A program made the translations under genes and the position numbers. DNA of 64,000 nucleotides from Actinomadura rudentiformis (GTDB lineage Bacteria; Actinomycetota; Actinomycetes; Streptosporangiales; Streptosporangiaceae), in NCBI RefSeq assembly GCF_008923185.1, contig NZ_WBMT01000005.1, positions 62,001 to 126,000 on the forward strand, in the 5' to 3' direction. The notes under the pieces are model-generated. The model did not search any database, had not been told where the DNA came from, and saw only the letters and a list, made by a program, of their open reading frames with translations. Of this stretch, positions 12,079-13,325 are shown piece by piece (positions within the stretch are counted from its first letter, which is position 1; each line of letters opens with the position of its first letter).

Positions 12079-12327
12079 ATGAGGTTCCCCACCCGCCTGG
12101 CCGTGCTCGGCGTCAGCGGTGCCGCGCTGGCGTTCACGGCCTGCCTGGTGCCCGCTGCCGCGGCAGAGCAACGCGCGACGTGGCGCGACACCGGCGCCCG
12201 GTTCTACTGGTACGAGAGCTGCCGTGAGGCCGGCGAGGCCGGCGTCCGGAACGAGGGCTGGCAGGCCTGGGACTGCAAGGGCAGTTCCGCGCCCTGGTCG
12301 AAGTACCAGCTCTGGTCCCTGAAGTAG
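12079..12327 (+). CDS. Small secreted protein, Trp/Cys-containing
   Basis: An 82-aa protein with a clear Sec signal peptide (basic MRFPTR, hydrophobic LAVLGVSGAALAFTACLV, AXA cleavage near residue 28). The mature ~54 residues are rich in Trp and Tyr (FYWYESC, GWQAWDCKG, WSKYQLWSLK) with two cysteines that could form one disulfide. I do not recognise a family. The ATG follows GTGAGGCGATGCG and a TACCGT box lies about 30 bp upstream. A perfect terminator hairpin follows immediately, so it is a monocistronic unit. Confidence 0.72.
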   Translation: MRFPTRLAVLGVSGAALAFTACLVPAAAAEQRATWRDTGARFYWYESCREAGEAGVRNEGWQAWDCKGSSAPWSKYQLWSLK

Positions 12328-12334
12328 GTCGGAA

Positions 12335-12366
12335 GGGCCGCGCCGCATTTTCCCGCGGCGCGGCCC
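12335..12366 (+). terminator. Perfect 12-bp stem hairpin after the small secreted protein gene
   Basis: GGGCCGCGCCGC at 12335-12346 and GCGGCGCGGCCC at 12355-12366 pair perfectly around an 8-nt loop, 7 bp after the stop codon. No U-tract follows, which is common in high-GC actinobacteria. Confidence 0.8.
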
Positions 12367-12444
12367 CCGTATAAATGCGTTGCCTTCAAGGAACCGCTTT
12401 GGCAGAGTGAAAGTCGAACGCAGCAGACCGGAGAGGAGCACATC

Positions 12445-12495
12445 ATGCGAATGCATAGTCGTCTCTCTGGGCCCGGGAGCAGCCGCCGAACGTGA
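12445..12495 (+). CDS. Putative 16-aa leader peptide upstream of the tRNA array
   Basis: ATG at 12445 is preceded by a strong GGAGAGGAG and opens a 16-codon frame reading MRMHSRLSGPGSSRRT. Its TGA stop (12493-12495) forms the loop of a perfect 6-bp hairpin (CGAACG at 12487-12492 with CGTTCG at 12496-12501). A second, terminator-type hairpin follows 6 nt later. The peptide has no Cys run or repeated amino acid that would mark a classical attenuator; it is Arg/Ser-rich (four Arg, four Ser, one His in 16), the same residues whose tRNAs lie downstream. Whether it is translated is unknown. Confidence 0.4.
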   Translation: MRMHSRLSGPGSSRRT

Positions 12496-12507
12496 CGTTC
12501 GCGCCTG

Positions 12508-12540
12508 CCGCCCGTGTCCACACGGGCGGTTTTTCTTTTC
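12508..12540 (+). terminator. Rho-independent terminator (or attenuator) directly before the tRNA array
   Basis: CCGCCCGTG at 12508-12516 pairs perfectly with CACGGGCGG at 12521-12529 around TCCA, followed by TTTTTCTTTTC. This is a textbook intrinsic terminator, rare in such a GC-rich genome. It ends only 3 nt before the first tRNA, leaving no room for a separate promoter, so tRNA expression must either read through it or come from a promoter inside the hairpin region. Confidence 0.85.
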
Positions 12541-12543
12541 CCC

Positions 12544-12629
12544 GGAGGGTTGGCCGAGAGGTAAGGCAGCGGCTTGCTAAGCCGTCGTCAGGGTCACCCC
12601 CTGCGTGAGTTCGATCCTCACACCCTCCG
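12544..12629 (+). tRNA. tRNA-Ser (GCU)
   Basis: An 86-nt cloverleaf with acceptor GGAGGGT/ACCCTCC, discriminator G, anticodon loop TTGCTAA (anticodon GCT) on a GCGGC/GCCGT stem, a long class II variable arm (GTCAGGGTCACCCCCTGC region) and T arm GTGAG-TTCGATC-CTCAC. All canonical for serine. CCA is not encoded. It is the first and most normal member of a four-gene array. Confidence 0.95.
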
Positions 12630-12630
12630 C

Positions 12631-12703
12631 GCCGGGTACGGAGGCTGGTGCTTCCGGTGGCTTCATATCCCACATCAGGCAGGTTCGATTCCTGCACCCG
12701 GTA
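12631..12703 (+). tRNA. tRNA with CAU anticodon (Met or Ile2 type), unusual
   Basis: A 73-nt cloverleaf starting 1 nt after tRNA-Ser. Acceptor GCCGGGT/ACCCGGT, D stem GGAG/TTCC, anticodon loop TTCATAT (CAT), T arm GCAGG-TTCGATT-CCTGC, discriminator A. Odd points: position 8 is A instead of the near-universal U, and the last anticodon-stem pair is C-C (GTGGC/CCCAC). It could decode AUG or, if lysidinylated, AUA, or be a decaying copy. Confidence 0.7.
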
Positions 12704-12704
12704 C

Positions 12705-12777
12705 GTCTCCGTGGCGCAGTGGAAAGCGCGTCGGGTTGCGGACCCGAAGGGCGCAGGTTCGAATCCTGCCGGAGACA
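12705..12777 (+). tRNA. tRNA-Arg (GCG)
   Basis: A 73-nt cloverleaf, 1 nt after the previous tRNA. Acceptor GTCTCCG/CGGAGAC is perfect, D stem GCGC/GCGC, anticodon stem TCGGG/CCCGA with loop TTGCGGA (anticodon GCG), T arm GCAGG-TTCGAAT-CCTGC, discriminator A; U8 and A14 are present, and A20, an arginine identity element, can be placed in the D loop. A GCG anticodon is unusual, since bacteria normally read CGU/CGC/CGA with an ACG tRNA edited to inosine. Confidence 0.88.
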
Positions 12778-12778
12778 C

Positions 12779-12851
12779 GGCGTTCGTGGTGTGGTGGTCT
12801 GCACGCCAGGTTGTGGTCCTGGAGGTTCCGGTTCGATACCGGGCGATCGCC
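12779..12851 (+). tRNA. tRNA-His (GUG), divergent
   Basis: Begins 1 nt after tRNA-Arg. G at 12779 can serve as the histidine-specific G-1 opposite discriminator C at 12851. Acceptor GCGTTCG/CGATCGC has one T-T mismatch; D stem GTGT/GCAC; anticodon stem CCAGG/CCTGG perfect with loop TTGTGGT (anticodon GTG); T arm TCCGG-TTCGATA-CCGGG. The histidine identity elements are intact although the acceptor is imperfect. The last base abuts the stop codon of the convergent SRPBCC gene. Confidence 0.8.
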
Positions 12852-13325
12852 CTAGGTGAGTTGCTCGAAGTACGCCTTTTGCGCGGGGTAGTAGTCGTCG
12901 AAATTGGGCTGGGGAGTGCCTTCGCGAGACGATACGAGCATGTCCAAGTAGTACTCCCAGCCCGGGCCCGTCTCGCCGATTCCCTCTGTGGTGGTGAGAT
13001 GCTGGATGAGTTTCAGCTCAGTGACGCCGTTCTGGTGCGTGAGGAGGAGTTCCAGGCGCCAATGCCCTGCTTCGTCGTCGGCGGTGACCAGTAGGCGTTC
13101 GGGGGGTTCGCAGACGTCGATGCGCATGTCGCTCCATGGCTCGCCCTCTTCGAAGAGCAAGCGGACTTTTACGGTGCGGCCGGGACCGGCGTCGCCTTCC
13201 CAATGGCCGAACCAACGGGCCGTTCGCTGGGGCTCGGTGACGCTGGCCCAGACGTCGTCGATAGGGGCCTTGAACGTGCGGGTGAACACGAGGTCGTTGC
13301 CATTGAGCCGGGCGGTGGGTTTCAT
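12852..13325 (-). CDS. SRPBCC (AHSA1-type) domain protein
   Basis: A 157-aa START/Bet v1-like fold protein of the AHSA1 group often encoded next to ArsR regulators. The pattern is clear: LVFTRTFKAPIDDVWASVTEP, then TARWFGHWEGD, VKVRLLFEEGE, and a C-terminal helix WEYYLDMLVSSREGTPQPNFDDYY. Such proteins bind hydrophobic ligands; function is unknown. The frame extends upstream but the ATG at 13325 is chosen for its AAGGAGAACACC ribosome binding site and because it overlaps the stop of the ArsR gene (ATGA). Its stop codon touches the end of the convergent tRNA-His. Confidence 0.88.
   Translation of the reverse strand: MKPTARLNGNDLVFTRTFKAPIDDVWASVTEPQRTARWFGHWEGDAGPGRTVKVRLLFEEGEPWSDMRIDVCEPPERLLVTADDEAGHWRLELLLTHQNGVTELKLIQHLTTTEGIGETGPGWEYYLDMLVSSREGTPQPNFDDYYPAQKAYFEQLT

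Follow-up and report, generated by a model that had tools for sequence, protein, structure and literature searches.

Promoter strength and growth-rate control are the usual explanation for the output of a tRNA operon. RNA-based sensing tied to the state of a tRNA is known from T-box leaders. The his, trp and leu attenuators combine a short leader ORF with control codons, an intrinsic terminator and competing upstream pairings, and the locus described here has such an ORF, a terminator-like hairpin and predicted competing pairings. Streptomyces lividans has leader-peptide attenuators of the synthetase genes leuS, trpS, alaS and thrS, and the eight leader peptides in the available excerpts of that survey precede genes for biosynthesis, transport or synthetases, with no tRNA genes among them (PMC8079986). 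According to excerpts of two further reports, phage tRNAs replace host tRNAs cut by defence nucleases (PMC10264068, PMC11555353). Among the matches listed from the open-access literature, as far as their excerpts extend, no leader-controlled tRNA operon was found.

Organization of the tRNA Array and Its Leader

The locus lies in a 64-kb window (the whole stretch of Actinomadura rudentiformis DNA that was analysed). Sequence and ARAGORN bore out the compact array described in the original prediction: four tRNA genes within 12544-12852, with a single c between neighbours and no encoded CCA. The claim of unusual members also stood. Three of the four tRNAs were matched by the Rfam tRNA model at gathering score; the CAU gene was missed by this model and labelled SeC(tca) by ARAGORN. 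At Rfam gathering scores the 64-kb window gave tRNA matches only and no T-box match. The original prediction was silent on a leader ORF and terminator at 12445-12540, upstream of tRNA-Ser; this leader is an important feature of the locus and a larger finding than the array itself. The features, in window positions, are:

12380..12385, + strand: -35-like hexamer TTGCCT (sequence; a GTTGC element recurs upstream of homologous arrays)
12403..12408, + strand: -10-like hexamer CAGAGT, 17 nt past the -35 (sequence; counterpart in the alignment of homologous loci)
12428..12435, + strand: segment 1, predicted partner 12463-12470 inside the ORF (leader fold, swap test across loci)
12433..12438, + strand: Shine-Dalgarno-like GAGGAG, 6 nt ahead of the start codon (sequence, rule-based search)
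12445..12495, + strand: leader ORF, 16 codons plus TGA, MRMHSRLSGPGSSRRT (sequence, homologous leaders, third-position bias)
12448..12462, + strand: control codons CGA ATG CAT AGT CGT, i.e., Arg, Met, His, Ser, Arg (sequence, codon statistics)
12463..12480, + strand: segment 2 in the ORF, predicted partner segment 1 or the terminator 5' arm (fold, swap test)
12507..12540, + strand: intrinsic-terminator-like hairpin (10 bp, 4-nt loop) and T tract (terminator scan, fold; hairpin conserved)
12544..12629, + strand: tRNA-Ser(GCU) (ARAGORN, Rfam tRNA model)
12631..12703, + strand: CAU tRNA, likely elongator Met; D-stem of 6 bp, UGGU loop (ARAGORN with label SeC, homologue alignment)
12705..12777, + strand: tRNA-Arg(GCG) (ARAGORN, Rfam tRNA model)
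12779..12851, + strand: tRNA-His(GUG), G-1 encoded (sequence, ARAGORN, Rfam tRNA model)

The promoter-like site is proposed from conservation, since a strict consensus promoter scan reported no promoter at this position. As in known attenuators, a short leader ORF is preceded by a ribosome-binding site. The ORF reads ATG CGA ATG CAT AGT CGT CTC TCT GGG CCC GGG AGC AGC CGC CGA ACG TGA, and the four array tRNAs serve the codons that come directly after its start codon (Arg, Met, His, Ser, Arg). The window terminator has a predicted stability of -20 kcal/mol, equalled by none of 200 shuffles, and ends 3 nt short of tRNA-Ser.

Comparison With Housekeeping tRNAs

The A. rudentiformis genome (10.7 Mb, 50 contigs) gave 70 Rfam tRNA matches, and 72 tRNA genes were called by ARAGORN on the fetched stretches. 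Outside the array, ARAGORN called one more gene each for Ser(GCU) and His(GUG), an Arg(ACG) gene and another four CAU tRNAs; counterparts of all four array tRNAs are thus present, and the refuting condition named in the original prediction, that the array holds the only genomic copies, does not hold. Identity to the counterpart over aligned bases was 56/89 for Ser, 41/73 for His and 45/73 for Arg. The window CAU tRNA agreed with the other CAU types of the genome at 43, 45 or 51 of 74 aligned bases, the last figure being for the initiator. Given this low agreement with the housekeeping counterparts, the array is, by sequence comparison, a second, diverged tRNA set.

The alignment of the CAU tRNA comprised 49 homologues, hand-chosen out of 91. 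Stem cells were paired in 98.5% of cases, slid controls dropping to 34-59%, and covariation was strong, with both sides changed in 17 of 23 pairs. A 6-bp D-stem with a 4-nt loop can form in all 49 homologues, and the usual U8 and A14 are absent from nearly all rows; G1-U72 occurs in 20 of the 49 and position 31-39 is unpaired in 16. The oddities of this gene are family traits, not decay, and in the alignment the CAU tRNA looks as if it is kept by selection.

In bacteria such a D-arm is known from tRNA-Sec, and the SeC label of ARAGORN probably stems from this Sec-like stem. A selenocysteine tRNA was rejected: 48 of the 49 homologues read CAU and one reads GAU, in a 7-nt loop, and the leaders carry ATG. 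The initiator tRNA, nearest by identity, was ruled out since position 1-72 pairs in all 49 homologues. The Ile2 tRNA was rejected as well, the leaders using ATG and ATA being absent from 101 unique leaders. Given ATG in the leaders and no ATA, Met is the likely amino acid of the CAU tRNA.

Distribution of Leader-Bearing Arrays

To annotate the arrays, ARAGORN was combined with a profile for each of the four classes of tRNA. Leaders were sought by position, length and Shine-Dalgarno match, and codon content was not a criterion; ten leader homologues missed by the rule were located by hand. In total, 122 loci were processed, of which 16 were without a counted leader and 106 were leader-bearing. 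The 16 comprised duplicates (L154, L299), a lone His remnant (L061), weak or housekeeping-like CAU matches (L162, L294, L297, L298), and nine array-class loci without an accepted leader (L053, L060, L143, L147, L155, L157, L283, L292, L293); for L283 the candidate leader of the rule was rejected by eye. Pairing tests and codon counts used a set of 104, with L160 and L289 counted only in the 106. Seventeen loci had been dropped by eye ahead of the 122 (L140-L142, L180-L182, L184-L194) as ordinary tRNA clusters, single ordinary tRNAs, contig ends, sites without a tRNA, or, once, a duplicate. Among these, L142 is a lone His-type tRNA in G065. L062-L064 were likewise dropped by eye, and L105-L134 and L227-L281, which were duplicates or housekeeping-level matches, lay outside the study.

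Actinomadura belongs to the Thermomonosporaceae, Streptosporangiales, in the NCBI taxonomy. All 65 Actinomadura genomes in the set were searched, and 58 had both array and leader, most of these loci having been retrieved with a query that included the leader. Two genomes had an array without a leader (G001, G041), one had a lone CAU tRNA without a leader (G003), and in four of the 65 genomes searched no array was found (G036, G040, G046, G055). Other genera of the same family contributed 48 further leader-bearing arrays. The compositions among the 106 were Ser-Met-Arg-His (41), Met (18), Met-Arg (14), Ser-Met-His (13), Met-Arg-His (9), Ser-Arg-His (5), Ser-Met (2), and one each of Ser-Met-Arg, Ser-Arg, Ser, and Ser-Ile-Arg-His.

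With a covariance model of the CAU tRNA, E values below 1e-12 were found only within the family of the window under strict filters and for this one tRNA class; outside the family, 268 genomes of the class and 4 of the order gave E values no better than 6.5e-11, which is where housekeeping CAU tRNAs score. Since the filters were strict and one tRNA class was used, other leader-controlled arrays may exist outside the family. An exact leader pattern scanned over genome contigs gave 32 matches, 17 of them in records named Actinomadura. Three or four array tRNAs followed in all 17, compared with none of the other 15.

Several side observations were made on these loci. Nine metagenome-derived contigs (L205, L207, L212, L215, L218, L220, L222, L225, L226) share an identical 48-nt stretch, which lies within or beside a Ser(GGA) tRNA gene in eight of them; its match to the leader pattern is probably chance. 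Six of the leader-less loci (L053, L060, L143, L147, L155, L157) are natural controls, several with a promoter-like GTTGC a short way ahead of the tRNA. In five Actinomadura loci (L033, L034, L035, L039, L042) the Arg tRNA of the array has ACG in place of GCG, and in three loci of genus g4 (L158, L163, L296) it has CCG. Three array genes, uncalled by ARAGORN, are 92 nt instead of 74 nt long: the CAU gene of L029 (1696-1787), with the extra 18 nt in the T-arm of the alignment, and the Arg genes of L027 (1576-1667) and L028 (607-698). Insertion, duplication or decay may account for them.

Matching of Leader Codons and Array tRNAs

The control codons of an attenuator are cognate to what its operon supplies. 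Across the 106 leader-bearing loci, the cognate codon was present in the leader for 304 of 305 tRNA-in-array cases: Ser AGY 65/65, His CAY 69/69, Arg CGY 72/72, Met ATG 97/98, and Ile ATC 1/1. Fisher tests of codon against tRNA presence gave p = 1.8e-12 for Ser, 4e-11 for His, 3.2e-6 for Met, 0.031 for Arg, and 0.047 for Ile, values that overstate independence, since the loci are related and the statistics ignore kinship. Within Actinomadura p was 0.0025 for Met, 0.0036 for His, and 1 for both Arg and Ser; Ser has no contrast there, being present in 57 of the 58 leader-bearing arrays. The other genera gave 0.00089 for Met, 0.0003 for His, 0.0042 for Ser, and 0.089 for Arg.

The converse was weak. 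Among loci lacking a given tRNA, its codon was absent in 23 of 41 for Ser, 19 of 37 for His, 5 of 8 for Met, and 3 of 34 for Arg. Co-loss of the Arg codon was set aside as evidence, and the Arg part of the matching rests on presence and codon choice, since CGY was kept in 31 of the 34 leaders of arrays without Arg.

The clearest cases of matching were switches within genus g67, where a CAU tRNA and a leader ATG occur together in G130, G200 and G160. G181 of this genus has Ser-Ile(GAU)-Arg-His, with GAU at the position of the CAU gene; its leader has no internal ATG and has ATC twice, ATC replacing ATG and the second ATG position being GTG. In G215, also of g67, the CAU tRNA and the internal ATG are both absent, and no convincing tRNA was found in the 97-nt Ser-Arg gap of its locus (L138) by ARAGORN, profile, Rfam or folding; intron-permitting ARAGORN returned 297 meaningless matches there. 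Within Actinomadura, G021 and G059 have neither the CAU tRNA nor an internal ATG, and the leader of G005, which has Ser-Arg only, is without CAY and without internal ATG. The exceptions were L026, where a CAU tRNA is present and the leader site is GTG, and L037, L044 and L059, where the leader ATG is kept without a CAU tRNA. L037 contains a 49-nt stretch resembling a truncated CAU gene, which is consistent with recent loss.

Codon Choice and Coding Signature

Codons were counted in the 5' half of 101 unique leaders, and ten stretches of the window with Pfam matches supplied a background of 2,458 codons. Together, Arg, His, Ser and Met made up 80% of the 5'-half codons and 17% of the background. 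The joint enrichment of Arg, His and Met was absent from the two other reading frames of the leaders, and single differences between close Actinomadura leaders fell mostly on third codon positions (382, vs 192 and 163).

The choice among synonymous codons was also distinct. Ser codons of the 5' half were AGY 142 times and TCN 11 times (background 37:71, p = 1.4e-24). Among Arg codons CGA, CGT and CGC were favoured and CGG was avoided, CGG being 9% of Arg codons in the 5' half vs 45% of the background. CGA made up 125 of 340 CGN codons in the leaders vs 4 of 199 in the background, and it immediately precedes ATG in 83 of 104 leaders; CGT, CAT and AGT were enriched over background as well. CGA, CGT and CGC are the set read by an inosine-34 Arg(ACG) tRNA, and by the standard wobble rules Arg(GCG) does not read CGA, a point against the attenuation reading. 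In the model of Elf and Ehrenberg, as given in excerpts of the paper, rare control codons and a high fraction of them make attenuation sharper and more sensitive (PMC1183508).

Predicted Competing Pairings in the Leader RNA

Folding predicted pairing between the stretch before the start codon and the 3' half of the ORF, which is also predicted to pair with the terminator 5' arm. An intrinsic-terminator-like hairpin between leader and structural genes, a further feature of attenuators, is present in the window and by rule in 91 of 104 leaders (13 without); 86 of the hairpins are more stable than -12 kcal/mol. When segments were swapped among the 91 loci, the 1:2 pairing averaged -24.9 for own and -22.8 for swapped partners (sd 0.29; 0/100 swaps), and the 2:3 pairing -18.7 and -17.7 (sd 0.32; 0/100 swaps). 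For a control pair from the same 91 loci, own partners were not better than swapped ones (48/100 swaps). Kinship could inflate the 1:2 and 2:3 results; the control pair has the same ancestry. Both pairings of the window leader are weaker than the 91-locus mean (-20.1 vs -24.9 and -16.1 vs -18.7).

Folds were then computed for truncated RNAs ending before the terminator 3' arm, averaged over the control codons, with shuffled upstream sequence as control. Upstream engagement of the terminator 5' arm was 0.67 with the ribosome on control codons and 0.48 with the ribosome at the stop codon (86 loci), with 50 of the 86 loci in the expected direction and four opposite. Shuffled upstream sequence gave 0.63 and 0.56, with 30 loci vs 13, and the difference from the real leaders had p = 0.0015. 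For the window leader the contrast was modest, with 0.63-0.70 when the ribosome sat on control codons and 0.50 when it sat at the stop. A version using the best control codon (63 loci vs 3) was biased upward, so the mean over codons was preferred.

At equilibrium the full-length terminator showed little discrimination, forming at 0.86 with no ribosome, and with one at 0.90 (5' half), 0.95 (3' half) or 0.96 (stop codon); 21 loci went the expected way and 2 the opposite way. A mutually exclusive antiterminator governed by ribosome position is thus favoured by the swap test and the truncated folds, but the full-length folds give it only a small effect. Since the full-length terminator wins almost wherever the ribosome sits in these models, the switch, if real, must be kinetic, a co-transcriptional race as in classical attenuators.

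As a side observation, the leaders of Met-Arg arrays of other genera (L148, L149, L161, L175, L176) have a conserved TGACGATTGGCGACGTC in common at their end. It is part of a predicted hairpin (GCTCGCATG/CATGCGAGC or similar), which overlaps the terminator arm and would be a simple two-state antiterminator.

Proposed Regulation of the tRNA Operon

The anatomy of the leader, its conservation, its coding signature, the codon-tRNA matching and the competing predicted pairings were the observations at hand. The locus is very likely a tRNA operon under ribosome-mediated transcription attenuation, in which slow decoding of the control codons switches on the cognate tRNAs. We infer transcription of the locus, translation of the leader, stalling, read-through, aminoacylation of the tRNAs and a natural trigger. 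The four spare tRNA genes would form one transcription unit behind the leader. A ribosome would translate the leader ORF, whose 5' half is packed with CGA/CGU/CGC, AUG, CAY and AGY, codons that the array tRNAs and the corresponding housekeeping tRNAs would read. With these tRNAs plentiful, the ribosome would reach the end of the ORF and cover segment 2, the terminator would form, and RNA polymerase would stop just before the first tRNA. With any one tRNA missing, uncharged or over-demanded, the ribosome would stall in the 5' half, leaving segment 2 free to pair with the terminator 5' arm and allowing read-through. Read-through would supply more of the same tRNAs, which would make a closed feedback loop and an OR gate over several tRNAs.

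A tentative extension, possible but rather doubtful, is that the operon serves as a tRNA-repair reserve. The leader would sense that certain housekeeping tRNAs are being destroyed, for instance by an anticodon nuclease of a phage-defence system, a rival toxin or a toxin-antitoxin pair, and release diverged replacements that the nuclease would not recognise.

It is improbable that the leader answers general translation stress or starvation for Arg, His, Met or Ser, with the identity of the tRNAs incidental and the tRNAs part of a stress regulon. Starvation would stall the ribosome on the same codons, and excerpts of one report describe another bacterial uORF that senses ribosome-targeting drugs (PMC12121999). 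However, the codons match the array at the level of isoacceptors (AGY, not TCN) and change together with it (CAU to GAU, ATG to ATC), and under starvation more uncharged tRNA would presumably bring no relief.

An ordinary tRNA operon with an unrelated small ORF, the terminator belonging to an upstream transcript, is quite unlikely. An ORF does lie upstream at 12079-12327, and the nine array-class loci of the family without a leader fit such an arrangement, but the upstream ORF has a GC-rich inverted repeat of its own at 12335-12366 (no T tract), and leader ORF and array occur together in 58 of 65 Actinomadura genomes, with matching codons and tRNAs.

Gene Neighborhood and Mobile Elements

A Pfam scan covered 20 ORFs between 398 and 25641, in the left part of the window. 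Ten had matches, all of ordinary chromosomal kinds, including a luciferase-like monooxygenase, an AHSA1 domain, an ArsR-type regulator and an acyl-CoA dehydrogenase; the genes at the array include the first three of these. In agreement with the original prediction, no phage or plasmid genes were found among the 20 ORFs scanned. The kinship with mobile-element arrays that it had considered was not supported, as the phage and plasmid collections gave single-tRNA matches only, and array and leader were found instead in most Actinomadura genomes; neither mobile genes among the ORFs scanned nor the array within such elements was seen. A remnant of a phage or plasmid tRNA array is most unlikely: tRNA arrays do occur in phages, and single array tRNAs match phage tRNA genes, for instance tRNA-Arg genes of two Streptomyces phages at 83% over 72 nt and tRNA-Ser genes of Brevundimonas phages at 90% over 51 nt, but the best match in 50,697 phage and 72,556 plasmid records covered at most 19% of the leader-plus-array query at the sensitivity used, the ORFs scanned are free of mobile genes, and presence is nearly genus-wide.

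Comparison With Known Systems

Unlike the his, trp and leu attenuators, the leader precedes tRNA genes and mixes as many as four kinds of control codon, and what the operon makes is itself the molecule that would be sensed when scarce. The S. lividans synthetase attenuators, as far as excerpts of the survey describe them, are likewise actinobacterial leader peptides acting on the tRNA-charging machinery, but they precede protein genes and carry codons of one amino acid (PMC8079986). Unlike in T-box leaders, sensing here would be by the translating ribosome. If the codon-matched leader works as proposed, the tRNA set would register a lack of its own members at the level of individual codons, and tRNA supply would be tied back to decoding demand. 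Given the natural co-switch from CAU/ATG to GAU/ATC, simple codon swaps would test the attenuation reading directly.

Phage rescue tRNAs, in the excerpts available, are also spare sets that supplement host tRNAs (PMC10264068, PMC11555353), whereas the present array is chromosomal, genus-conserved and apparently inducible through its codon-matched leader. If the trigger is tRNA cleavage, a self-rescue arm would be added to the arms race over tRNA-cutting defences, and a tRNA-repair reserve would be a chromosomal counterpart of the rescue tRNAs encoded by phages.
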